A stretch of DNA of 64,000 nucleotides, taken from NCBI GenBank assembly GCA_945915475.1, contig CAMEFI010000006.1, positions 1 to 64,000 on the forward strand, given 5' to 3'. The notes under the pieces are model-generated. The model was not told the DNA's origin. It saw only the letters and a list, made by a program, of their open reading frames with translations, and made no database searches. This DNA is from an uncultured Clostridium sp. GTDB taxonomy: Bacteria > Bacillota > Clostridia > Lachnospirales > Lachnospiraceae. The translations under genes and the position numbers were made by a program. Positions 1 to 60,585 of this stretch are shown here, in pieces. How positions within the stretch are numbered: position 1 is the first letter of the stretch; each line of letters opens with the position of its first letter.

Positions 1-75
1 CGCAAGCGTGCCAGCGAGGATATTGTCAAATTGCACAACATTTATAGAAGATGCAGGAGTTTCGCAAACGCCTGA
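1..75. repeat. Right half of dispersed inverted-repeat element (copy 1, cut by window edge)
   Basis: Bases 1-47 are identical to 26201-26247 in the copy near 26 kb. The similarity then continues, less exactly, to an end resembling the other copy's terminus (ttcgcaa then cgcct versus ttcgcaattgcct). Only the right half is visible; the rest lies before the window. The terminus overlaps the last ten or so codons and the stop codon of the adjacent pseudouridine synthase gene. This is seen directly; classing it as a MITE-like or REP-like element is inference. Confidence 0.8.
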
Positions 76-23593: not shown

Positions 23594-23956
23594 CTAATAT
23601 ACAAAAGAAAATGCATTGGTAATATAATGTATTCTCCCCGGCGTAACCGCCGCCACATCAAAACGTACCGGTGTCGTATCCGGTAGTCCATGACTATACA
23701 TATAATATAGTGCCGCATGACTGATCCTTTTTTGTTTGGCAATCCCCACAGCTTCTTGCGGGCTTCCATACTTTGAAGAACTTCTGTATTTCACCTCAAT
23801 GAATACATAGTATTCTTCCTCCTTTGCAATAATGTCCACTTCCCCCTGTCTGCAACGATAATTCATCTCTAAAATCGTGTAATTATGGCAGGTCAGGTAA
23901 TCCTTCACCAGTTGCTCCACCTCTGCTCCAAGCTTTCTTTTGTTTCTCTGCTGCAT
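23594..23956 (-). CDS. YraN family (UPF0102) nuclease-fold protein
   Basis: Small protein with a restriction-endonuclease-like fold. The signature acidic/lysine set is GEVDIIA...FIEVKYR at about residues 37-58. In many bacteria it sits next to rnhB, as it nearly does here; the cellular role is unsettled. The track TTG overlaps the ribosome binding site; the ATG four codons later (AGAGG, four bases) gives 120 residues. It directly follows the FhlB-like gene. Confidence 0.88.
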   Translation of the reverse strand: MQQRNKRKLGAEVEQLVKDYLTCHNYTILEMNYRCRQGEVDIIAKEEEYYVFIEVKYRSSSKYGSPQEAVGIAKQKRISHAALYYMYSHGLPDTTPVRFDVAAVTPGRIHYITNAFSFVY

Positions 23957-23968
23957 ATAACCTCTCAA

Positions 23969-24247
23969 TCAATGTTTCTTTAATTTGCTCTTAATCTTAT
24001 CCATCTTATCCACATAGATAAGGATCTCTGCAACCACACCATATAATTCCGGCGGAATCATATCCCCGATATCCAGTTTCAAAAGAGTGTCTGCAAGACC
24101 TTCATCCTGATAAGTTGCAACATCATGTTCTTTTGCTTTCTCAATAATCCGGTCTGCAACGGCTCCCTGTCCGGATGCAACTACCTGTGGTGCCTGATTT
24201 GACGGATCATAATTAAGGGCAACTGCTTTTCGTTTCTTTTTATCCAT
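23969..24247 (-). CDS. FhlB: free-standing FlhB C-terminal-domain-like protein
   Basis: A 92-residue homologue of the cytoplasmic domain of flagellar export gate protein FlhB. It aligns by eye with the end of the FlhB encoded at 59.5-60.6 kb: shared features are AVAL-Y, (P)QVVA, DRIIEKAKEHDV and MIPPELYGVVAEILIYV. It lacks the membrane part and the NPTH autocleavage site. It is equivalent to B. subtilis YlqH. Such proteins are thought able to act in flagellar export-specificity control, but evidence is limited. It sits directly after a FliK-like gene, so both partners of the FliK/FlhB switch have paralogues here, away from the main flagellar operon. Confidence 0.85.
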   Translation of the reverse strand: MDKKKRKAVALNYDPSNQAPQVVASGQGAVADRIIEKAKEHDVATYQDEGLADTLLKLDIGDMIPPELYGVVAEILIYVDKMDKIKSKLKKH

Positions 24248-24265
24248 ATTCCATCCATCCCTTCA

Positions 24266-26026
24266 TCACGTTCTCGCATCAAATGTATACCGTTTAATAC
24301 TTCGTTCCGCATTCTCATCCACCACTTCATCCACCACCTTATTGATGGAGTCAGCCGGCTGTCGTTTCACCACCTCATTGGTCAGAGAAAATCCCCGGTC
24401 AGCCAATTGTCCTGCCAGCATTTTCATGTTATCTGCAACAATATCCACACTTTCCTGATCATTGAGATAGAATCTTGCATGGACATTGCTTCCCGTTAAT
24501 GTTACTTTCACGTCCGTTGCCCCAAGATGATCCATATCTAAATGTAACATGACACTGATACTATCTTTTTTCTGCTGAAGTTTTCCCTTATCTGCATAGA
24601 TATATAACTCAGAGTTCGTCTGCCTGTTTGATAATGTTATGGGCATCTGCGCATAAATCATCTGTTGATTTAACTGATTCATGAAATTGAGATTCTGCCG
24701 CATATTCTGAAAATCCTGTTGAAATCCTTTTGTATCCCCTCCATGGGAACAAATGATATCATCAAATTTTTTCGTATTTTTAAGTAAAGACTCATACAGA
24801 TCATCTATCTCCTTCGGATCCTTCATCTGTTGCGGATTCAAAGAAAAGCCCTTTTTGATAACCTCAGACATCAGATTCCGGAAGCTATCATTTTGTAGGA
24901 AATGTTGCAGCATATCCTGTGGTACATCGCTTTTTTCCAGTGTCTGTAATACATTCTTTAACAGTGTTTCTTCTGACTGTGACTTTAAAAATGTCTGTAC
25001 AATATCCGAATCTGATACATTGGTCTTTTGCATAGCATCTGCTAGTTTCAACATTCCATCCTTTGCGGCACTGACATCTTCGTTGGAACTAATATTCATT
25101 TGTCTGATTAAGGTTTGGACACCCTGTTCTATCATAGGTTCTCGGTCTGGCATCCGGGAATCCGAAACTCCATCTGCATCCTGCATATCCGGTGCTGCCT
25201 TCATTACATCCTCTCCATCTGCCGGCTGCGGTGCCTGCGACATTTCTCCTTCCACCTTTTTTCCATCAGACAGAATCCCCTCATCCACGGAAGAATCCAT
25301 ATTCAAAGGAAGCATGTTATCTTTCACAAATAGATCCGTTATCTCATTTGCAACTGTAAGAAGCGTCTTTCCATCCACATTTTGCGAAAATGCTCTTGTA
25401 AAATCTGCCATAGCATCCGCAGTCTCACTGATATCTCCCATCAGCTGATGCTGCATATTCTCGTATCGTTCAAATTGTGTAATATTCTCCTCCGTAACCG
25501 GAATATTCATCTTGGTAAGCGATACCAGTGTCCGCAAAGAAGTTCCTTCATATTTCATACTTTGAGACAAAATATTGACAATGCTTCCTTTATCCACCGG
25601 CATTCCTGCATCCATAAGTTCTTTCGCCACCGTGAAATTCTTTTCCGTGGGCGAAAGACCGGCAATATCCAGTGCCTTCTCTAAGACCTGTGTCTGTGCG
25701 CTATAAATAGAATCAAACATAGGCTTTAACAATATCTGCTTTGATGTATTCTCTTTCACGGAAAACAGAAGTTTATCCCCTACACCAAGCTCAACACCCG
25801 CCTGTAACCGTGCCATCAACTTCGCCTGATTCTCCAAAGAAATCGTAACTTTATCCCCTACAATATCCAATACCTCACCACGGAACACTGCCCCTTCATT
25901 CAGTCCGGATAAATCAACGGAGGATTTCCCTGCAGATGTCTGTTCTACATTCTGGGCATGTCCTACCGTAACCTGCTCCTGCAGGTTATTATCATATCCT
26001 GTCACCAGATGGTTTCCAATCTGCAT
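24266..26026 (-). CDS. FliK-like (YlqG-type) hook-length-control domain protein
   Basis: The C-terminal 130 residues look like the FliK/Flg_hook domain: ISVMLHLDMDHLGATDVKVTLTG-type strand-rich region followed by a helix with LAGQLADRGF. The N-terminal 90 residues resemble the conserved start of Firmicutes YlqG proteins (VFRGEVLDIVGDKVTI and VGDKLLFSVKEN), and a long Gln/Met/Asp-rich middle separates them. No signal peptide or membrane segment. Next gene is FhlB, matching ylqG-ylqH order in B. subtilis, and rnhB is upstream as there. FliK sets hook length and switches export substrate; whether this paralogue does so is unknown. Strong AAGGAGG before the ATG. Confidence 0.8.
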   Translation of the reverse strand: MQIGNHLVTGYDNNLQEQVTVGHAQNVEQTSAGKSSVDLSGLNEGAVFRGEVLDIVGDKVTISLENQAKLMARLQAGVELGVGDKLLFSVKENTSKQILLKPMFDSIYSAQTQVLEKALDIAGLSPTEKNFTVAKELMDAGMPVDKGSIVNILSQSMKYEGTSLRTLVSLTKMNIPVTEENITQFERYENMQHQLMGDISETADAMADFTRAFSQNVDGKTLLTVANEITDLFVKDNMLPLNMDSSVDEGILSDGKKVEGEMSQAPQPADGEDVMKAAPDMQDADGVSDSRMPDREPMIEQGVQTLIRQMNISSNEDVSAAKDGMLKLADAMQKTNVSDSDIVQTFLKSQSEETLLKNVLQTLEKSDVPQDMLQHFLQNDSFRNLMSEVIKKGFSLNPQQMKDPKEIDDLYESLLKNTKKFDDIICSHGGDTKGFQQDFQNMRQNLNFMNQLNQQMIYAQMPITLSNRQTNSELYIYADKGKLQQKKDSISVMLHLDMDHLGATDVKVTLTGSNVHARFYLNDQESVDIVADNMKMLAGQLADRGFSLTNEVVKRQPADSINKVVDEVVDENAERSIKRYTFDART

Positions 26027-26066
26027 AGAGATCCTCCTTTTCTTCCTTTATTCTATAGGATTATAT

Positions 26067-26272
26067 AGGTAATTGCGAAACTCTTAAAAATGTATATTGA
26101 GTTGTGCAGATTTGACAAGTATCCTAAGCAGGTGCTTTGAGACCGCCGGTACTTAACGAGTGTGAAACACGAGTTTAGTACCGCTGCGAGGCGAGAGCAG
26201 CGCAAGCGTGCCAGCGAGGATATTGTCAAATTGCACAACATTTATAGGAAAAGAGGAGCTTCGCAATTGCCT
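26067..26272. repeat. Dispersed inverted-repeat element (complete copy), MITE-like or REP-like
   Basis: About 206 bp with imperfect inverted ends. The left arm (about 26067-26124) and right arm (about 26216-26272) are reverse complements over roughly 55-60 bp with small gaps; shared blocks include AATTGCGAA, TTGTGCA, ATTTGACAA and TATCCT. The middle is GC-rich compared with its surroundings and holds further small hairpins: GGTACT...AGTACC, GCTGC...GCAGC and CGCAAGCG. Bases 26201-26247 are identical to window positions 1-47. No transposase and no clear target duplication seen. It fills the gap between rnhB and the FliK-like gene; the 62-residue ORF reported inside it looks like noise. Confidence 0.85.
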
Positions 26273-26280
26273 ACTTCATT

Positions 26281-27033
26281 CTAAATAAAGTTCCCTATAA
26301 ATGATCTGCGATGAATCTTACATGGTCCTATCGTCTTCAATGCTTCAATATGTTTCGCGCTGCCATATCCTTTGTTACTTGCAAAATCATACCCCGGATA
26401 GACCGCATCCATATCCACCATATAACGATCTCTTGTTACCTTTGCAACGATACTTGCTGCCGCAATGGATACACTCTTTGCATCTCCTTTAATAATGGAT
26501 TCCTGTGGAATTGTAACTTCCGGAATCGTCACAGCATCATTTAATAATATATCGGGTGTAACATCAAGTTTGCTGAGAGCCATCCGCATTGCTACATAAT
26601 CTGCCTGCAATATATTGATCTCGTCAATGCACGCCTCGTCCGCATATCCAATCCCCACTGCAACGGCTTTCTCCATAATTTCCTCATAGAGCTGTTCCCT
26701 CTTCTTCGCTGACAACTGCTTGGAATCATTTAGATAATATATGTCAATATCTTTGGGCAGTATGACGGCAGCTGCCACTACCGGCCCCGCAAGAGGCCCT
26801 CTTCCAACCTCATCAATCCCACATATATACTGATAATCCGCATATTTACGTTCATATGCCTGCATTGCATATGTACGTTTCACTTCATTCTCAAAAGCTA
26901 TAATCTTCTTTTTCGCACTCTGGGCAAGTTTCTGAACACCTGCACGCTCATCTGCTTCCCAATCTGCAACTTTGTTTTTTAATTCATCTATAGAAGCCGT
27001 TTTTATATACTCTTTGATTTCATTAATTCCCAT
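26281..27033 (-). CDS. rnhB: Ribonuclease HII
   Basis: Removes ribonucleotides from RNA-DNA hybrids. Catalytic acids are in YICGIDEVGRGPLAG near residue 70-84 (Asp, Glu) with later Asp residues in LLNDAVTIP near 162 and in the DAKSVSIAAASIVAKVTRD block near 178-196. An N-terminal extension of about 65 residues before the catalytic core is common in Firmicutes RnhB. The track TTG start is replaced by the ATG eight codons in, preceded by GAGTGAGG, giving 250 residues. The stop codon lies about 10 bases before the repeat element, so the coding sequence is intact. Confidence 0.95.
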   Translation of the reverse strand: MGINEIKEYIKTASIDELKNKVADWEADERAGVQKLAQSAKKKIIAFENEVKRTYAMQAYERKYADYQYICGIDEVGRGPLAGPVVAAAVILPKDIDIYYLNDSKQLSAKKREQLYEEIMEKAVAVGIGYADEACIDEINILQADYVAMRMALSKLDVTPDILLNDAVTIPEVTIPQESIIKGDAKSVSIAAASIVAKVTRDRYMVDMDAVYPGYDFASNKGYGSAKHIEALKTIGPCKIHRRSFIGNFI

Positions 27034-27040
27034 ATGTACC

Positions 27041-27646
27041 TCACTCAATCTTACCAAAAGAAGATAATGGCCATAGCCGGAATACCGCTTTCCCTATTAA
27101 GTCCTCCCGTTTCACATTACCCACAATATCAAAACGGGAATCTTCACTCTCATTTCGGTTATCACCCATTACAAAATATTCATCTTCCCCCAGGGTTACT
27201 CCATCAAGAGCTCGCCCGGTCATCCCCGGCTCAATCGTTTCATAACCATAATCTTCCTGAAGCATTTTTCCGTTAATATAGATATTACCGTCATAATCAA
27301 TACGGACAGTTTCTCCCGGAAGACCAATAATTCGTTTGATAAAAAATTCCTCCCCATCATACATAGGAAATACAACAATATCAAAACGTTCCGGTTCCTT
27401 AAAATGATAGGAAAATTTGTCAACCCATAAATTATCATTATGATGAAGTGTATCATACATAGATTCCCCATTCACCACCGTACGCTGTCCCACAAAAGTT
27501 ACAATCAGCCATACTGCTACGAACAGAAATACAAGATAGGCAAGGGTATCTATAATCTCACGCTTCATGCTTTTTGTCTTCTCCTCTGTCCCCATTGGTT
27601 CTGTCCCACTCTTCTCTTTCTCTATCTTTTCTTTCTTCTTACTCAT
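27041..27646 (-). CDS. Type I signal peptidase, paralogue 1 of 3
   Basis: Cleaves signal peptides from secreted proteins at the outer membrane face. One N-terminal membrane segment (IDTLAYLVFLFVAVWLIVTFV) is preceded by a Lys/Glu-rich cytoplasmic stretch. Catalytic Ser is in GESMYDTL near residue 74 and Lys in FIKRIIGLPGE near 117; the late FVMGDNRNESEDSRF box is intact. Start ATG (three codons after the track GTG) has AGGTG upstream. Two further homologues lie next to it, and rnhB follows. Length 201. Confidence 0.92.
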   Translation of the reverse strand: MSKKKEKIEKEKSGTEPMGTEEKTKSMKREIIDTLAYLVFLFVAVWLIVTFVGQRTVVNGESMYDTLHHNDNLWVDKFSYHFKEPERFDIVVFPMYDGEEFFIKRIIGLPGETVRIDYDGNIYINGKMLQEDYGYETIEPGMTGRALDGVTLGEDEYFVMGDNRNESEDSRFDIVGNVKREDLIGKAVFRLWPLSSFGKIE

Positions 27647-27655
27647 ATCAATCAC

Positions 27656-28228
27656 CTACTCAACCTTCCCAAATTTTGAAAGTGGCCAGATTCGAAATAC
27701 CGCTTTTCCTTCTAATTCATCCTTATGAATATTGCCAACATCCTCAAAGCGGGAATCTTTACTATCATTTCGATTATCACCCATTACAAAATATTCATCT
27801 TCTCCCAATATGATATTACTTTTAGCTCGGCCGATCATATTAGGCGAAATGATTTCATAACCATAATTCTCTTCCAATGGCTCATTATTGATATAGATCG
27901 TTCCGTCTTCTTCTATCCTGATACGCTCTCCGGGCAAACCAATAATCCTTTTAATATAATAAACGGAACTATCCTGATACGGAAATACAACAATATCAAA
28001 TCTCTTCGGATCACGGAACCGGTATGATAACTTATCAATCCATAGATTATCACCATCTTCCAGGGTATCATACATAGAGTTACCAACCACCTCTGTTCTC
28101 TGTCCCACAAATGTCAGGATAAACCACACTGCCAGAATTACAAAAGCAATGTATAGCACCATACTTACTATCTCTTTTACTATATTGATCTCTTCGGAAA
28201 ATTGACTCTCCCTTTCCTTCTTTGCCAT
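27656..28228 (-). CDS. Type I signal peptidase, paralogue 2 of 3
   Basis: The same architecture as its neighbour: membrane segment IVSMVLYIAFVILAVWFILTFVG, catalytic GNSMYDTL and YIKRIIGLPGE, and FVMGDNRNDSKDSRF. It is very like paralogue 1 across the catalytic domain, suggesting a fairly recent tandem duplication. The track ATG has no good site; the ATG of MAKKER has AAAGGA eight bases upstream and gives 190 residues. It ends about 10 bases before paralogue 1 and follows rbgA. Confidence 0.92.
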   Translation of the reverse strand: MAKKERESQFSEEINIVKEIVSMVLYIAFVILAVWFILTFVGQRTEVVGNSMYDTLEDGDNLWIDKLSYRFRDPKRFDIVVFPYQDSSVYYIKRIIGLPGERIRIEEDGTIYINNEPLEENYGYEIISPNMIGRAKSNIILGEDEYFVMGDNRNDSKDSRFEDVGNIHKDELEGKAVFRIWPLSKFGKVE

Positions 28229-28267
28229 AAATACCGTCCTTTCCCATCCACATGATATTTCCATGAC

Positions 28268-29110
28268 CTATTCCGGATATTCCACTGATATAGCTCCCAG
28301 TTTTCCACTTCGAAAATCTTCTAATAAAATACCTGCTGCTTTCTCATAATCCAACTCCTGCCCCTTCATAAGGCAGCCTCTATTCCTTGCAATCTCGTGA
28401 AGAATCGTTGCCGGAGATTCCGTTTCATTGACCTCATAACGTTCCTTTAACAGATTAGGATAGTGTTCCACCAAAAAAGCGATCAAATCACAGGCAAGCT
28501 CTGTTTTTTGTAAAATATCGTCATTAATGGAACCAATAAATGCCAAATGTTCTCCCACTGATTGATCCTCAAACTTAGGCCAGAGAATTCCCGGTGTGTC
28601 AAGAAGTTCCACATTCTTATTAATCTTAATCCATTGTTTTCCTTTTGTAACCCCTGGCTTATTGCCAACCTTTGTACAGGCTTTTCTGGCATAGGAATTA
28701 ATAAAGGTTGATTTACCAACATTAGGTATCCCTACAATCATCGCCCGGATTGGGCGATTCATAATTCCCCGTTTGCGGTCACGTTCAATCTTTTCCTTAC
28801 ATGCCTCCTGCACCTTAGCCGTAATCGCTTTCATCCCCTGTCCATCTCTTGCATTAATGGTTACAACCAGAATTCCCTGATTCTTAAAATAATTCTCCCA
28901 CTGTGCGGTCACTTTACTGTCAGCAAGATCACATTTATTAAGCAATACAAGTCGATACTTATTGTTTGCAAGGGAATCAATATCCGGATTCCGACTGCTG
29001 AATGGAACTCTTGCATCGAGTAACTCGATTACAATATCAATTAATTTCATATCCTCCTGCATCATACGCTTTGCCTTCGTCATATGACCAGGATACCATT
29101 GAATATTCAT
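28268..29110 (-). CDS. rbgA: Ribosome-biogenesis GTPase RbgA (YlqF)
   Basis: Circularly permuted GTPase that assists late 50S assembly. Motif order is permuted: LLNKCDLAD (G4) near residue 56-64 comes before GIPNVGKSTFIN (G1) near 127-138, followed by the G3 region DTPGILWPKFED near 171. The N-terminal IQWYPGHMTKA is typical. Length of 280 is normal. It sits between two signal peptidase genes, as in Bacillus where ylqF is near sip/lepB-like genes, rplS and rnhB. Confidence 0.96.
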   Translation of the reverse strand: MNIQWYPGHMTKAKRMMQEDMKLIDIVIELLDARVPFSSRNPDIDSLANNKYRLVLLNKCDLADSKVTAQWENYFKNQGILVVTINARDGQGMKAITAKVQEACKEKIERDRKRGIMNRPIRAMIVGIPNVGKSTFINSYARKACTKVGNKPGVTKGKQWIKINKNVELLDTPGILWPKFEDQSVGEHLAFIGSINDDILQKTELACDLIAFLVEHYPNLLKERYEVNETESPATILHEIARNRGCLMKGQELDYEKAAGILLEDFRSGKLGAISVEYPE

Positions 29111-29137
29111 ATATTAACTCCTTATCCGATGTTATTC

Positions 29138-29722
29138 TCATTTCACAAAGCCCCACTTACTTCTTGGAGAAATACGAAATACTATCTTGCCGCAAATCTC
29201 CTTATCAGAAATATTGCCAATATTTACATAACGGGAATCTTCACTGTTATTACAGTTATCACCAATTACAAAATATTCTTCTTCTCCTAGTGTAACACCT
29301 TCTAGAGCGATTCCTTCTGTCATAATCAGATCATCAAAAGGTAAATCCGTAAGAGCATTTCCATCAATAAAAATCCTTCCATTCTTAATCTGTACGGTCT
29401 CTCCCGGAAGACCGACAATCCTCTTTATTGTAAAATATCCATCCGTATCTTCCTTTAACTTAAATGAAATAATATCGTATCTTTTCGGACTACCAAACAT
29501 ATATGCTGCCTTATTTAATAAAAGCACATCCTGATTCGATAACGCAGGATTCATGCTTTGTCCAATCATTGTAACCGTCTGCATACCAAAGGTCACAATA
29601 CTATAAGCAAGAATCACGACAACCAGAATGGAAATAGCCCAATGTCCAGCTTCCGACATGAAATCCTTTACATCAAATTCTTCCCGCTCATAACTGCTCC
29701 GATATCTTCTGCGTCGTCTCAT
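29138..29722 (-). CDS. Type I signal peptidase, paralogue 3 of 3
   Basis: More diverged than the other two. It has an Arg-rich start (MRRRRRYRSS), one membrane segment (WAISILVVVILAYSIVTFG), catalytic Ser in GQSMNPAL near residue 65, Lys in FTIKRIVGLPGE near 108, and FVIGDNCNNSEDSRY, where Cys replaces the usual Arg after GDN. The catalytic dyad is intact, so activity is likely. TAGGAGG precedes the ATG. It comes after rplS and before rbgA. Length 194. Confidence 0.92.
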   Translation of the reverse strand: MRRRRRYRSSYEREEFDVKDFMSEAGHWAISILVVVILAYSIVTFGMQTVTMIGQSMNPALSNQDVLLLNKAAYMFGSPKRYDIISFKLKEDTDGYFTIKRIVGLPGETVQIKNGRIFIDGNALTDLPFDDLIMTEGIALEGVTLGEEEYFVIGDNCNNSEDSRYVNIGNISDKEICGKIVFRISPRSKWGFVK

Positions 29723-30312: not shown

Positions 30313-31395
30313 TTACTTTTCATCAAATTCATTCCCATCAAGCATCCTGCGTTTCTCCTTCACTTTATTCCGTTCTTTTTCATAATTTTCTTTATTTTCA
30401 ATAAATTCTTTTCTTTGCTCTCCATACGGAGTCATTCCATGGGTGAAGGCATAATCTGCAACCAGCGGATGTTCATGTTCCACAAGATATCTTAAAATTG
30501 GTTGTTTGCACCATCGTTCTAAGATAAAAATACCAATCACACTTGCTATGATACAAAGAAAGCTGCTGATTGTATATAGAATGCCGGATGTTGCCTGCTG
30601 CACCACAATGATTATAATAAAAATAATAACAGCAAGTAACAAAGTCTTCTTAACCGATGCAAACTCTTCCTCTACCATCATGATTTCCTTGTTAAAAAAT
30701 TGAATCCGATTATCCATATGGGATATCAAACGATTCAGATACTCCTCTTCTTTTCGATAAAACTCATCTAATTCCTGTATACTGTTTGTCCAGCTATCCT
30801 CCTGTTTCAAACTGAATCCACTAGATGATTTACCGGGATTTTCATCAAACAAAATACCCTTCTTACGTAGGACTTCTTCTTTCTGCTGTTTCTTCTTAAT
30901 GAGACTCTGTTTCTCTTCCGTAAGTTCTTCAATTTTTCTGTCATATTCATCAATTTGGGATAACAGAATATCTATTTTCTTTTTTGTACGCAGTTTGTCA
31001 TTTTGAAAAGTATCAATATCCAGCCTGGCTGCAAGGGTCTTCATCCGACCAGGATTCCAATCATAGGAAAGTTGAAATAACATTTTCAATTCCCGTTTTA
31101 CTAATTTGAATTCCGCATAAGCTAAAAAAGGCATCAAAAAGATAAATAAATCAAGAGAAACCATATCACAGCCCTCTATAATATAATACAGTGCTAAGGC
31201 AATGATTACAATAAAAATCAGCCGAAATAACACCTCATGTTGTACAAGTCTTTTTCTTTTCCCTATATAATCATAATGAAACCGGGTATTACCTAGCTCC
31301 AGTTCTAATTTTTCTTTTTCATTTTTACATTGATATATCTGCTCTGCTAATTGAACCAGGTCCGGTTTTTCATAACCATAACCACCCATCTCCAT
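30313..31395 (-). CDS. Unknown membrane protein with long coiled coils
   Basis: I do not recognise a family. The 360-residue protein has a predicted coiled coil (residues about 10-45), two membrane segments (LFRLIFIVIIALALYYII and MVSLDLFIFLMPFLAYAEF), a long charged coiled-coil middle (about 125-245) and a second membrane pair (LLLAVIIFIIIIVVQ and YTISSFLCIIASVIGIFIL), then a charged C-terminal tail. Both ends are likely cytoplasmic. The track start lies inside trmD; the ATG one base after the trmD stop has GAGGG eight bases upstream, so it is probably coupled to trmD. It interrupts the usual trmD-rplS adjacency. A scaffold or membrane-shape role is only a guess. Confidence 0.75.
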   Translation of the reverse strand: MEMGGYGYEKPDLVQLAEQIYQCKNEKEKLELELGNTRFHYDYIGKRKRLVQHEVLFRLIFIVIIALALYYIIEGCDMVSLDLFIFLMPFLAYAEFKLVKRELKMLFQLSYDWNPGRMKTLAARLDIDTFQNDKLRTKKKIDILLSQIDEYDRKIEELTEEKQSLIKKKQQKEEVLRKKGILFDENPGKSSSGFSLKQEDSWTNSIQELDEFYRKEEEYLNRLISHMDNRIQFFNKEIMMVEEEFASVKKTLLLAVIIFIIIIVVQQATSGILYTISSFLCIIASVIGIFILERWCKQPILRYLVEHEHPLVADYAFTHGMTPYGEQRKEFIENKENYEKERNKVKEKRRMLDGNEFDEK

Positions 31396-31396
31396 A

Positions 31397-32101
31397 TCAT
31401 TTTCCCTCATATCTCTCCCATAGATCAGGACGTCTTTCTTTTGTTCGCTCAATCGATTGTTCTTGTCGCCAGGCCTCTATATTCTTATGATGACCGCTTA
31501 GCAGGACATCCGGTACACGCTCCCCCATAAATTCCTCCGGTCTTGTATACTGTGGATATTCCAAAAGATTATCATGAAATGTCTCAAACTCCGCACTGAC
31601 ATCATTGTGAAGCACACCCGGAACCATCCGGGATACCGCATCAATCACAACCATAGCCGGTAACTCCCCACCGGTTAAGACATAATCTCCAATGGAAATG
31701 TTATCGGTCACAATCCGTTTTAACACCCGCTCATCAATTCCTTCGTAATGACCACATAGAATAACCAGGTCTTCTTCCTGCGCCAATTCTTTTGCAAGTG
31801 CCTGATTAAACACCTTACCCTGCGGTGTCATGTAAACAACACGCAGTTTTTTCTCCTGTTTCATGCCAATCCTCTTTTTCACAGCCTCATAGGCACGGTA
31901 TACCGGTCCCGGCTGCATCACCATACCTGCGCCACCACCATATGGATAATCATCTACCTGACCGTGCTTATTCTCTGCATAATCCCGGATATTGATTGCA
32001 TCTACGGATATGGTCCCCTTCTTTATGGCCCTGCCCGTTATGGAAGTTCCAAGTCCATCTAATACCATATCCGGAAATAAAGTCAATATATGAAAATGCA
32101 T
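31397..32101 (-). CDS. trmD: tRNA (guanine-N1)-methyltransferase TrmD
   Basis: Makes m1G37 in tRNAs to prevent frameshifting. The trefoil-knot SAM site is seen in [12 protein letters not shown] near residues 113-124 and [13 protein letters not shown] near 136-148, with [13 protein letters not shown] near 57. Length of 234 is normal. It follows rimM with a gap of one base, matching the widespread rpsP-rimM-trmD-rplS operon. Its stop is followed at once by the start of the unknown membrane protein. Confidence 0.97.
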
Positions 32102-56095: not shown

Positions 56096-57353
56096 CTCCA
56101 CCTCCTAGTACCTGTTTTGCAATCACCTGTGGATTCATCACTTCAATATCATCCGGAACATTTTGTCCATAAGACACATAGGATAACGACATACCTGTAT
56201 CTAATTTAATATTCAAAATATTGCCAATGGCATCTGTCTCATCCAATTTTGTAAAGATGAGATTACATTCAGATATATCATCGTAAAGTGCTGTAATTTT
56301 TTTCAAATCTTTGTATTTTGTTGTTGCGCTCAATACAAGATACGTAGAAATATTATATTTAAAAAATGTCTCCATAAAACCTTTTAAATCATCCATACGA
56401 TTCTTATTTTTATGAGACCGGCCGGCCGTATCTACCAGCACATAATCATAATCCTTGTACTTTGGAAGAATATCTTCTATCTCTTCTTTTTCATAGACAA
56501 CCTCAACAGGAATTGACAAAATGCTGGCATAAGTTTTTATCTGTTCTACGGCTGAAATCCGATAGGTGTCTGCTGTCAGTATTGCAATCTTCTTCTTTTG
56601 TTCAAGTATGAGTTTAGAAGACAGTTTGGCAATTGTAGTCGTTTTCCCAACCCCGGTGGGTCCGATAAATAAAATAATCTTAGGCCTCTTTTCATCGTTT
56701 TTCAATGAAATTGGTTGTACCTGTCCAAGTTTTAATATGATCTTCTGGTAAACACCAGACAACATATCATCCAATGTACGAACATTTCCGGTATGTGTAA
56801 TCTCTTCTATGATCTGTTTTGCATATGTATAGGACACTTCATTTGCTGTCAATTGCTCCATAATCAAATCAATCGATTTCTGTCGAACAGACTCCTTTGC
56901 ATCCGCCTTCTCTTTCTTACTATCATGTTTATTATCTTCTGATACCTCTTCCTTATTATCAGATAACATTTTTTTCTCTTCATCCGGCTTTATCTTTGAT
57001 GTCTTCTCTTCTTTTTTCTGGCTTTCTATTTGTTCCTCTAACAGCTTGGCAAGACTGTTTAATTTCTCATTCAACGCTTTTGTTTCATCATCTTCCGCTT
57101 TTTGTTCCGGATGCAGTTTCTCATTGATCTTGTCATTAAACTGTGCTGATACCTTACTTTCTGATTTCTTCGGCTCCTCTGTATTCTCATCAACAGCAGC
57201 TGTCACTTCCACCTGTGTCTTTCGGAACATCTTGAATAAGCCCTTGGGCTTAATTGTCTTAATGTTCATTACTATGGCATCTTTTCCAAGATCTTCTTTT
57301 GCCAGCATAATCGCTTCCGTTTCTGTGTTACCCTGAAATTTCTTAATTATCAT
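56073..57353 (-). CDS. flhF: Flagellar SRP-type GTPase FlhF
   Basis: SRP-like GTPase that sets where flagella assemble. The N-terminal B domain (1-90) is followed by a long Lys/Glu-rich linker, then N and G domains with [18 protein letters not shown] near residue 222-239, [24 protein letters not shown] and [11 protein letters not shown]. Length of 426 is normal for Clostridia. It overlaps flhA at one end and flhG at the other, giving a coupled flhA-flhF-flhG set. Confidence 0.95.
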
Positions 57354-59409
57354 TATATGTCACCACCCCTATTGATTGTAATTCTACATCTGATTCGATC
57401 TCATTATACGACACAACAATCAAATCTTTAAAATAATCTTTTGTTAATTTCTTAAAATACATTCGGACAATCGGAGAAGTGATAATAATAGGAGATTTTC
57501 CCTGACTTTCCAATTTCTTAATCTCATTCTCAACAGAATTTAATATCTTCTTTGTTGCTGCAGGATCCAAAGTAATATAAGCTCCCTGTTCAGTCTGCTT
57601 GACAGAATTCATAATATCCTGTTCCACCTTCGGATCCAATGTTACAACTGTTGTCATCTCTCCATCCGAAAAATATGTATTTGAGATTGCTCTCTTTAAT
57701 CGCTGTCTTACATATTCTGTTAAAATATCGGTATCTCTGGTGGTCGCCGCATAGTCTGCCAGCGTCTCAAATATAGTAACAAGATCCCGGATGGAAATAC
57801 CTTCCGATAATAAATTCTGTAATACTTTCTGTATTTCTCCAACACCTAGTAGCTTTGGAACCAGTTCATCAATAAGCGTTGTATTGTTCTCTTTCACATT
57901 ATTGATCAGATTCTGAACATCCTGTCTCGTCAACAATTCATCTAAATGGCTCTTGATTACCTCTGTCAAATGCGTTGCAATGATAGATGGCGGATCCACA
58001 ACTGTATAACCCATAGACTCCGCACGTTCTCTCTGACTTTCCGTAATCCAGATAGCCGGCAGATGAAAGGATGGCTCAAAGGTGGGAATACCTGTAATCT
58101 CTTCTTCCACATAACCGGGATTCATTGCCATATAATGATCAAATAAAATCTCTCCTTCACTAATCTGAATCCCCTTAATCTTAATGATATACTGGTTCGG
58201 ATTCAGCTGAATATTATCGCGTAAACGAATAATCGGAACAACTGCTCCTAATTCCAATGCAATCTGTCTTCGAATCATAACCACACGATCCAGCAAATCC
58301 CCTCCCTGATTCACATCCGCAAGAGGAATAATGCCATAACCGAATTCTAGTTCTATCGGATCAACCTGTAACAATGCATTTACATTCTCATGCCGTCTGA
58401 TCTCGTCTGCCTGTACCTCTTCTTCTTTCACTTCTTCTTCAATGGATTCCACTTCCTTTGAATGCTCCACTAAGCGTCCAAAAACAATAAGTCCTAATCC
58501 AAATGCCAGGTAAATAAGAATTCTTCCCTCACTTCTAAGAGGTGTAAAAACACCCAGAAAGCATAACGTTCCCCCTACAATATACATAACCTTCGGCAGA
58601 TGGAACAACTGGCTGAACATCATATCCCCTATATTATCCGCTTTTGCACCTTTTGTAACCAATATACCGGTTGCAATAGAAATAAGCATAGAAGGAATCT
58701 GGGATACCAGACCGTCACCAATCGTAAGAATCGTGTACTTAGAAAGAGCTTCCTGTAGCTCCATTCCCTGCATCGATACACCCATAATAATACCACCTAC
58801 AATATTAATCATGGTAATGATCAAACCTGCTGTAGCATCTCCTTTTACATATTTCGTAGCACCATCCATGGATCCATAAAATGCAGACTCCTGCTGAATC
58901 TTCTCACGTCGTTCCATGGCTTCTTTATCTGTAATTGCACCAGTATTCAAATCTGCATCAATGGCCATCTGTTTACCCGGCATTGCATCCAATGTAAATC
59001 GGGCTGTTACTTCCGAAACACGCTCTGATCCCTTGTTGATAACAACCATCTGTACAATAACAAGAACTATGAAGATAATAGCACCAACTACCAGATTCCC
59101 TCCACCTACAAAATTACCAAAGGTCTGTACAACAACACCAGGATCACCTGTTGTTAATATTAATTTGGTTGAAGAAATATTCAACGCAATCCTAAATACA
59201 GTAGAAAACAGTAATATTGTCGGAAAACTCGACATATCCAGTGTCTCAGCAGCATAGAGACAATTAAAGAGAATAAATAATGAAATCATAATATTCACTG
59301 TAATTAATATATCTAATAAAAGAGAAGGTATTGGAATAATGAATAAAATAATTGCAGCTAACAAATAAAGACCGACAAATAAATCTGCCCGAAATGCAAT
59401 CTTTTTCAT
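57343..59409 (-). CDS. flhA: Flagellar export-gate protein FlhA
   Basis: Large membrane component of the type III export apparatus. The N-terminal 310 residues hold about eight membrane segments and the conserved FHIPEP-family block (FILFNCLYAAETLDMSSFPTILL region and DAMPGKQMAIDADLNTGAI near 140-158). The C-terminal half is the cytoplasmic chaperone/substrate-docking ring domain. Length of 688 is normal. It follows flhB and overlaps flhF. Confidence 0.97.
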   Translation of the reverse strand: MKKIAFRADLFVGLYLLAAIILFIIPIPSLLLDILITVNIMISLFILFNCLYAAETLDMSSFPTILLFSTVFRIALNISSTKLILTTGDPGVVVQTFGNFVGGGNLVVGAIIFIVLVIVQMVVINKGSERVSEVTARFTLDAMPGKQMAIDADLNTGAITDKEAMERREKIQQESAFYGSMDGATKYVKGDATAGLIITMINIVGGIIMGVSMQGMELQEALSKYTILTIGDGLVSQIPSMLISIATGILVTKGAKADNIGDMMFSQLFHLPKVMYIVGGTLCFLGVFTPLRSEGRILIYLAFGLGLIVFGRLVEHSKEVESIEEEVKEEEVQADEIRRHENVNALLQVDPIELEFGYGIIPLADVNQGGDLLDRVVMIRRQIALELGAVVPIIRLRDNIQLNPNQYIIKIKGIQISEGEILFDHYMAMNPGYVEEEITGIPTFEPSFHLPAIWITESQRERAESMGYTVVDPPSIIATHLTEVIKSHLDELLTRQDVQNLINNVKENNTTLIDELVPKLLGVGEIQKVLQNLLSEGISIRDLVTIFETLADYAATTRDTDILTEYVRQRLKRAISNTYFSDGEMTTVVTLDPKVEQDIMNSVKQTEQGAYITLDPAATKKILNSVENEIKKLESQGKSPIIITSPIVRMYFKKLTKDYFKDLIVVSYNEIESDVELQSIGVVTYNDN

Positions 59410-59460: not shown

Positions 59461-60585
59461 CTAACTAACCTTATTATGTAATTGATATACATATGCTAAT
59501 ACTTCTGCCACCGCCTGATATAATTCCGGAGGAATCTCAGCTCCTAATTCCACATTATAATATAACATTCTGGCCAGTGGTTTATTTTCAACAATCTCCA
59601 CCTGATTCTCTCTTGCAACTTCTTTGATCCGTCCTGCCAAAAAATCTGCTCCCTTTGCCACAACAATTGGTGCCTGCCCCTGACCAGCCTTATAAGAAAG
59701 CGCTACCGCAAAATGTGTCGGGTTTGTAATCACCACATCCGCTTCCGGAATGGCTGCCATCATACGACGCTGGGAAGCCTGTTGCATACGTTGACGCTGC
59801 TGACCTTTTACTTTCGGATCTCCTTCCTGATTTTTATACTCATCCTTTACTTCCTGTTTGGTCATCTTATTATCCGTCTTGAATTTCCATTTCTGATAAA
59901 GAAAATCCGCGGCACTGATGGCACAGAACAACAAACAAATCTTAAGTGAAAGCTCCATAACAATATCATACATCAGGCTCACACTCTGCATAACAGACAT
60001 ATCAAAGATTAAATATATTTCCTTCACATGCTCCACAAATACTCCATAAGCAAGATAGGAAATCATTACCACCTTCACAATAGATTTCAGAAGTTCCACC
60101 AACGTGTTAAGCGAAAACATACGCTTCACACCATTCACGGGATTCAACTTGTTAAATTTGGGCATTAACGGCTTCGATGTCACTTTAAATTTGAATTGTA
60201 AAGCATTACTTAAAAATGCAACCACAAATCCAAGCAAAAGAAAAGGAGCAATGGTAATTGCAATATTCATAATTGCTTTCAACATCAGAAAATTAAATGC
60301 CTTTACATCAATTCCGTCTACTGCATACCGGGTAATCATGGAATAGAAATCTTTAAATGTAGCAATCAAACGATTTCCAATAAATCCTACCGCAAATTTC
60401 AAACACACAAATAAAGCAAGCAATGTTGCTGTTGTAGAGACCTCCACACTCTTTGCAACATTACCTTCTTCTCTGACATCCTCTAACTTCTTTGTTGTTG
60501 CATCCTCTGTTTTTTCACCACCGGGACCTTCTTTTGCAAACATCTGCAAATCCAGCGGCATTCTAATTTGATATTCGTAATCCAC
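59461..60585 (-). CDS. flhB: Flagellar export-gate and substrate-switch protein FlhB
   Basis: Four membrane segments (residues about 50-230) and a cytoplasmic C-terminal domain with the autocleavage motif NPTH near residue 288 ([15 protein letters not shown]). The N-terminus carries the FlhB-type [23 protein letters not shown] signal-like stretch near 23-45, preceded by an extra 20 residues. Start GTG has AAGGGA about ten bases upstream; no ATG with a better site exists until nine codons later. The free FhlB paralogue at 24 kb resembles its last 85 residues. Confidence 0.95.

Follow-up and report, generated by a model that had tools for sequence, protein, structure and literature searches.

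In Salmonella, FliK acts on the C-terminal domain of FlhB in the change of flagellar export from early to late substrates. Early substrates dock in a pocket of FlhB that comprises A286, P287, A341, and L344 (PMC9307174), the last five residues of FliK are important for switching (PMC10965912), and a 2026 report describes FliK-dependent loss of the FlhB C-terminal domain as the event that flips export from early to late, with early secretion failing when the domain is missing (PMC13344023). FlhX of Helicobacter pylori (HP1575, FlhB2), a stand-alone FlhB C-terminal domain, is reported to act as a "spare part" that permits export when the FlhB C-terminal domain is deleted (Wand 2006, cited in PMC3040844). 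In Nitratiruptor, flhX lies next to fliK outside the main flagellar cluster, the partner gene being named simply fliK (PMC9321776), and FlhX is counted among the flagellar export proteins in surveys (PMC10746217 and PMC9321776). The family itself (YlqH/FlhX, TIGR00789) and this kind of flagellar accessory are already known.

The gene pair described here, flhX and fliK2, is found in a 64,000-nucleotide stretch of a Lachnospiraceae genome, referred to as the window. It shares with the Salmonella FlhB/FliK switch a common fold, the substrate pocket, and the FliK core and tail, but FlhX does not arise by autocleavage and FliK2 contains barrel and helical domains rather than a long disordered ruler. 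H. pylori FlhX is likewise a stand-alone domain, although from a different phylum, and the window partner, which like the fliK of Nitratiruptor lies next to flhX, is a second FliK in its genome. The pair of the Bacillus subtilis YlqG–YlqH type, as seen in the bacillar-type genome G485, has the same order after rnhB, the same proteins, and the same FliK-type tail; the Lachnospiraceae pair differs from it in scoring below the TIGR00789 cut-off and in being followed by yraN instead of sucC. What is new here is the test of co-occurrence, the co-retention of the two genes after unlinking, the analysis of pocket and tail, and a concrete hypothesis for the function of the pair.

Identity and surroundings of the gene pair

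A preliminary description of the window had seen paralogues of both hook-switch partners side by side, a reading that was borne out by the ORFs, which are real and lie in tandem on the minus strand with 18 bp between them (Table 1), and by their family matches. PF01312 matches FlhX at profile positions 262–335 with 71.9 bits against a cut-off of 24.4, which makes it a member of the FlhB/SctU C-terminal domain family, and PF02120 (Flg_hook) matches FliK2 residues 481–556 with 45.1 bits against a cut-off of 29.8, which identifies a FliK-family core. The best NCBIfam model for FlhX is TIGR00789 (flhB_rel), at 105.4 bits and thus short of the 117.35 needed for membership; this cut-off was passed by none of the 200 Lachnospiraceae genomes and by the bacillar-type genomes G485 and G328. 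FlhX is not a full FlhB, because it has only 92 amino acids and contains neither the transmembrane part nor the NPTH autocleavage site. The claim that it keeps the FlhB C-terminal core without this site extends to its relatives: NP[TL]H/NPTH was absent from all 129 FlhX sequences and present in all 20 FlhB sequences that could be read, seven further FlhB loci having given no readable ORF with the motif. A FastTree phylogeny placed 20 FlhB and 126 FlhX sequences in separate clades (support 0.99, branch 0.72).

Table 1. Positions of the gene pair and of reference features in the window
Feature	Position	Strand	Remarks
yraN	23594..23968	-	downstream neighbour, directly adjoins flhX
flhX (ylqH-type)	23969..24247	-	stand-alone FlhB C-terminal domain, 92 aa, without NPTH
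fliK2 (ylqG-type)	24266..26026	-	FliK-family partner, 586 aa
fliK2, protein parts			N-terminal OB/S1-like barrel (about 45-103); helical regions; FliK core (about 456-554); terminal tail FDART
fliK2, extreme C-terminal tail codons	24266..24283	-	FDART = residues 582-586, plus stop
MITE-like hairpin repeat	26060..26280	.	between rnhB and fliK2; about 205-220 bp; 41 matches in genome
rnhB	26281..27057	-	lies upstream of fliK2; in many relatives the two genes overlap or almost touch
flhA	57343..59409	-	flagellar export apparatus marker
true flhB	59461..60585	-	carries NPTHF cleavage site; 33.4 kb from pair

The pair sits in a block with the order rplS, lepB, rbgA, two more lepB, rnhB, fliK2, flhX, yraN, pgeF, and der, where rbgA, lepB, der, and pgeF are named from their sequences. 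On the other side of the block, trmD, rimM, ffh, ylxM, ribF, truB, infB, nusA, rimP, tsf, and rpsB lead to fapA, sigD, and the che and flh genes, and the canonical FliK of the same genome is found just beyond the window (G000:C6:70780-71013). The pair had been described as far from the flagellar operon; this holds for the distance to flhB but less so for the flagellar and chemotaxis genes as a whole, which end at sigD/fapA (about 47–50 kb), only about 20–21 kb from the pair. In G485 the order is ffh-rimM-trmD-rplS-rbgA-rnhB-partner-flhX-sucC, the order known for Bacillus, with the fla genes about 20 kb further on. The suggestion of a long-conserved place with synteny like that of B. subtilis ylqG-ylqH is upheld by this bacillar-type order of rnhB, partner, and flhX. 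Conservation outside the flagellar operon applies to the window genome but not to G127, G046, and G029, in which the pair lies inside flagellar or chemotaxis loci, among fapA/flgG/sigD/flhA or cheA/cheW/cheB. Two further features of the block were noted: three signal peptidase I (lepB) paralogues are gathered around rbgA within 2.7 kb (window 27041-29722), and a 379-amino acid ORF between rplS and trmD (window 30313-31452) had no NCBIfam match at 1e-15.

Co-occurrence with the flagellum and between the two genes

Matches to TIGR00789, FlhA, and PF02120 were each found in 100 of 200 Lachnospiraceae genomes and, with few exceptions, in the same ones. Nearly all positive genomes gave exactly two TIGR00789 matches, one short (FlhX) and one long (FlhB). 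G044 contains FlhB and lacks FlhX, G197 contains FlhX without FlhA, and the FlhA match of G085 scored 18.6 bits and was treated as chance. Across the phylum sample, TIGR00789 and FlhA were each matched in 250 of 300 genomes, and the two genome lists, which were matched up by eye, disagreed only for G222 and G418, in both of which flhB is cut by a contig end. Three candidates for FlhX without a flagellum were rejected: flhB runs off the contig in G222; fliK stops at the contig end in G197, and its flagellar genes were not recovered; and G123 has a real flhB–flhA deletion fusion, but the remaining operon is present.

Because the distribution of the pair follows the flagellum across the 200 family and 300 phylum genomes, it very probably has a flagellar role. 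The preliminary description, which rightly proposed a function under selection, had left open whether this function is flagellar, and the presence check in relatives answers this in favour of the flagellum, with which the pair is gained and lost; a conserved Gram-positive pair of no assigned function is now tied firmly to that organelle. It could be supposed from the neighbours rplS, rnhB, rbgA, and yraN, and from the resemblance of the FliK2 barrel to S1/IF1/eIF2-alpha OB folds, that the pair drives a non-flagellar process such as ribosome or RNA metabolism, but it is absent from the sampled non-flagellated genomes even though rnhB and yraN are housekeeping genes, and in one lineage it lies inside flagellar loci. 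This explanation is largely refuted by the co-occurrence and is considered highly improbable. A single TIGR00789 match was found in 67 of 250 phylum flagellates, so that about a quarter are without FlhX, which is therefore dispensable for having a flagellum.

The two genes also follow each other. Among the 183 genomes with two or more TIGR00789 matches, 112 had a second Flg_hook match, whereas only 2 of the 67 genomes with a single TIGR00789 match did (Fisher 6e-19, a p-value that overstates independence because the genomes are related; some divergent partners are also missed by Pfam). Eighty further flhX loci were taken from named contigs with a narrower FlhX alignment, the all-clade alignment being too divergent; two of these are at contig ends, and a partner ORF is upstream of flhX in all 78 loci that have upstream sequence. 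More distant genomes also have the partner directly upstream of flhX, sometimes too diverged for Pfam.

That fliK2 and flhX are always adjacent was considered and rejected, because in about ten Lachnospiraceae genomes they are no longer linked, lying on different contigs or distant from each other, with both genes and the FliK2 tail kept (L228-L247). This co-retention after unlinking speaks for the two genes working together and against mere operon inertia. It is usually fliK2 that has moved in the unlinked genomes, whereas in G178 it is flhX; in G007, flhX directly follows rnhB, and a second FliK was not located.

Further arrangements were noted in these genomes. The fusion in G123 (L034:8922-10790) is natural and in frame: the membrane part of FlhB, up to about residue 200, continues into the C-terminal part of FlhA to give a protein of 622 amino acids. 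It lacks the FlhB C-terminal domain and the greater part of the FlhA membrane domain, with fliK2-flhX intact elsewhere in the genome. Two short FlhX-type matches besides FlhB are found in G283, G474, G238, and G245. The window genome also encodes a third FliK-like protein of 1137 amino acids (L039:2071-5484, G000:C3), with DUF6240, a weak C-terminal Flg_hook match, and no FD-x-R-x tail. Its gene immediately precedes one for flagellin, an arrangement also present in G044 (L056).

Pocket, tail, and a candidate accessory export switch

The AlphaFold model of FlhX (pLDDT 83) superposes on the Aquifex FlhB cytoplasmic domain 3b1s with TM scores of 0.82/0.89 and on 3b0z with 0.79/0.86. FlhX begins just past the point at which FlhB is cleaved and has a basic residue in place of the FlhB histidine. 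Across 129 FlhX sequences the FlhB pocket is kept, with A286 and P287 at 100%, A341 at 98%, and L344 at 94%; the corresponding residues in the window are A19, P20, A73, and L76. FlhX departs from FlhB at nearly FlhB-fixed positions, namely K292, D295, R320, and a one-residue gap at 323, and because of these differences it may not fit the same site as the FlhB C-terminal domain.

The FliK2 model (pLDDT 75) consists of a disordered start, an N-terminal barrel, helical regions, a linker, a FliK-type core, and a disordered end. The likeness of the barrel to S1/IF1/eIF2-alpha OB folds is weak (E about 2e-3 at best; none <0.001), the C-terminal domain gives a weak fold match to the PscP switch domain 5cuk (TMt 0.59), and a profile search against PDB sequences returned chance matches only. 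With its folded barrel at residues 47–103, its helical domains, and no long unfolded N terminus, the model does not place FliK2 among the FliK hook-length rulers. In the tail, F582 and D583 are invariant (59/59), R585 is 95% conserved, and FD[VMAILR][RK]x ends all 78 partners, which assigns them to the proteins with a FliK switch tail. Despite being flanked by variable disordered sequence, these final residues are better conserved than any other stretch of FliK2, and the FD-x-R/K-x pattern matches the five-residue switching tail of Salmonella FliK.

One explanation of these features is that FliK2 alone fine-tunes hook length and that FlhX serves as its chaperone or export escort. The conserved partner-flhX order, with genes usually overlapping or close, would agree with this, as would the correspondence of the FlhX pocket to the export-signal-binding pocket of FlhB, but FliK2 has no long ruler at its start, where a disordered stretch is followed by a folded barrel, and the general absence of a second FliK from flagellates without FlhX favours neither order of dependency. 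An escort role is regarded as unlikely.

A free C-terminal domain with the FlhB pocket, accompanied by a FliK that shares the core and tail, is consistent with a switch that is accessory or resettable. FlhX would be a version of the FlhB cytoplasmic C-terminal domain that is synthesized on its own and cannot be cleaved, its pocket docking rod/hook-type substrates, and would be able to take or retake the position of the cleaved FlhB domain. FliK2 would be the FliK-type partner that, through its core and C-terminal tail, inactivates or removes FlhX and possibly also acts on FlhB, such that the early-to-late switch is adjusted or reset. We infer that FlhX enters the export gate, that FliK2 binds FlhX, and in which direction the effect runs here. 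An accessory export-switch module, with FlhX as a replaceable FlhB C-terminal domain and FliK2 as its cognate switch protein, is proposed with moderate confidence; the changed FlhB-fixed positions, the probable transcription with housekeeping genes, the quarter or so of flagellates without FlhX, and a folded N-terminal barrel unlike that of a secreted ruler count against it. More speculatively, FlhX could be a renewable replacement for the FlhB domain removed by FliK, with FliK2 as its dedicated remover. The early-to-late switch, held to be one-way in Salmonella, would then be resettable or doubly gated in carriers of the pair.

A soluble FlhX mimic could instead act as a decoy or buffer, titrating FliK2, canonical FliK, or early substrates in the cytoplasm and setting the switch threshold outside the export gate. 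The conserved pocket in a protein without membrane part or NPTH would suit a decoy, expression of the pair is probably independent of the flagellar cascade, and the conserved FlhX-specific changes (G28, D48, and loss of R320) may signal that FlhX docks in another state. A pure decoy is nevertheless disfavoured because it would not permit export without the FlhB C-terminal domain, as H. pylori FlhX is reported to do, and this alternative is judged possible but rather doubtful. For the accessory switch, the intact pocket of FlhX and the invariant tail of FliK2 point to residues for mutation, and the pair makes it possible to ask directly whether removal of the FlhB C-terminal domain by FliK, as reported in 2026, can be undone by a spare domain.

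Transcriptional context and the upstream repeat

The genes rnhB and fliK2 overlap, or have no more than 10 nt between them, in 33 of 75 relatives, and from this arrangement fliK2-flhX is probably expressed with the housekeeping unit and not obviously with the flagellar regulon. A candidate sigma-D promoter upstream of fliK2 (TAAA-N12-GCCGATAA, in about ten relatives) was rejected because its copies fall within rnhB, in the conserved VPIIK codons. Sigma-70-like sites near fliK2 numbered 8 against 8.2 expected, no excess over chance.

In the window genome, a MITE-like hairpin repeat parts fliK2 from the rnhB transcription unit. No Rfam match was found for this repeat, which has terminal inverted repeats (TAGGCAATTGCGAAAC) and a strong hairpin (z -7.8), with target duplications of 13–16 bp in at least three copies. 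Of its genome matches, 35 of 41 are near full length, at 89–100% (G000 contigs C1-C46). The element also occupies window 1-73, at the start of contig C6, which ends in a copy as well.
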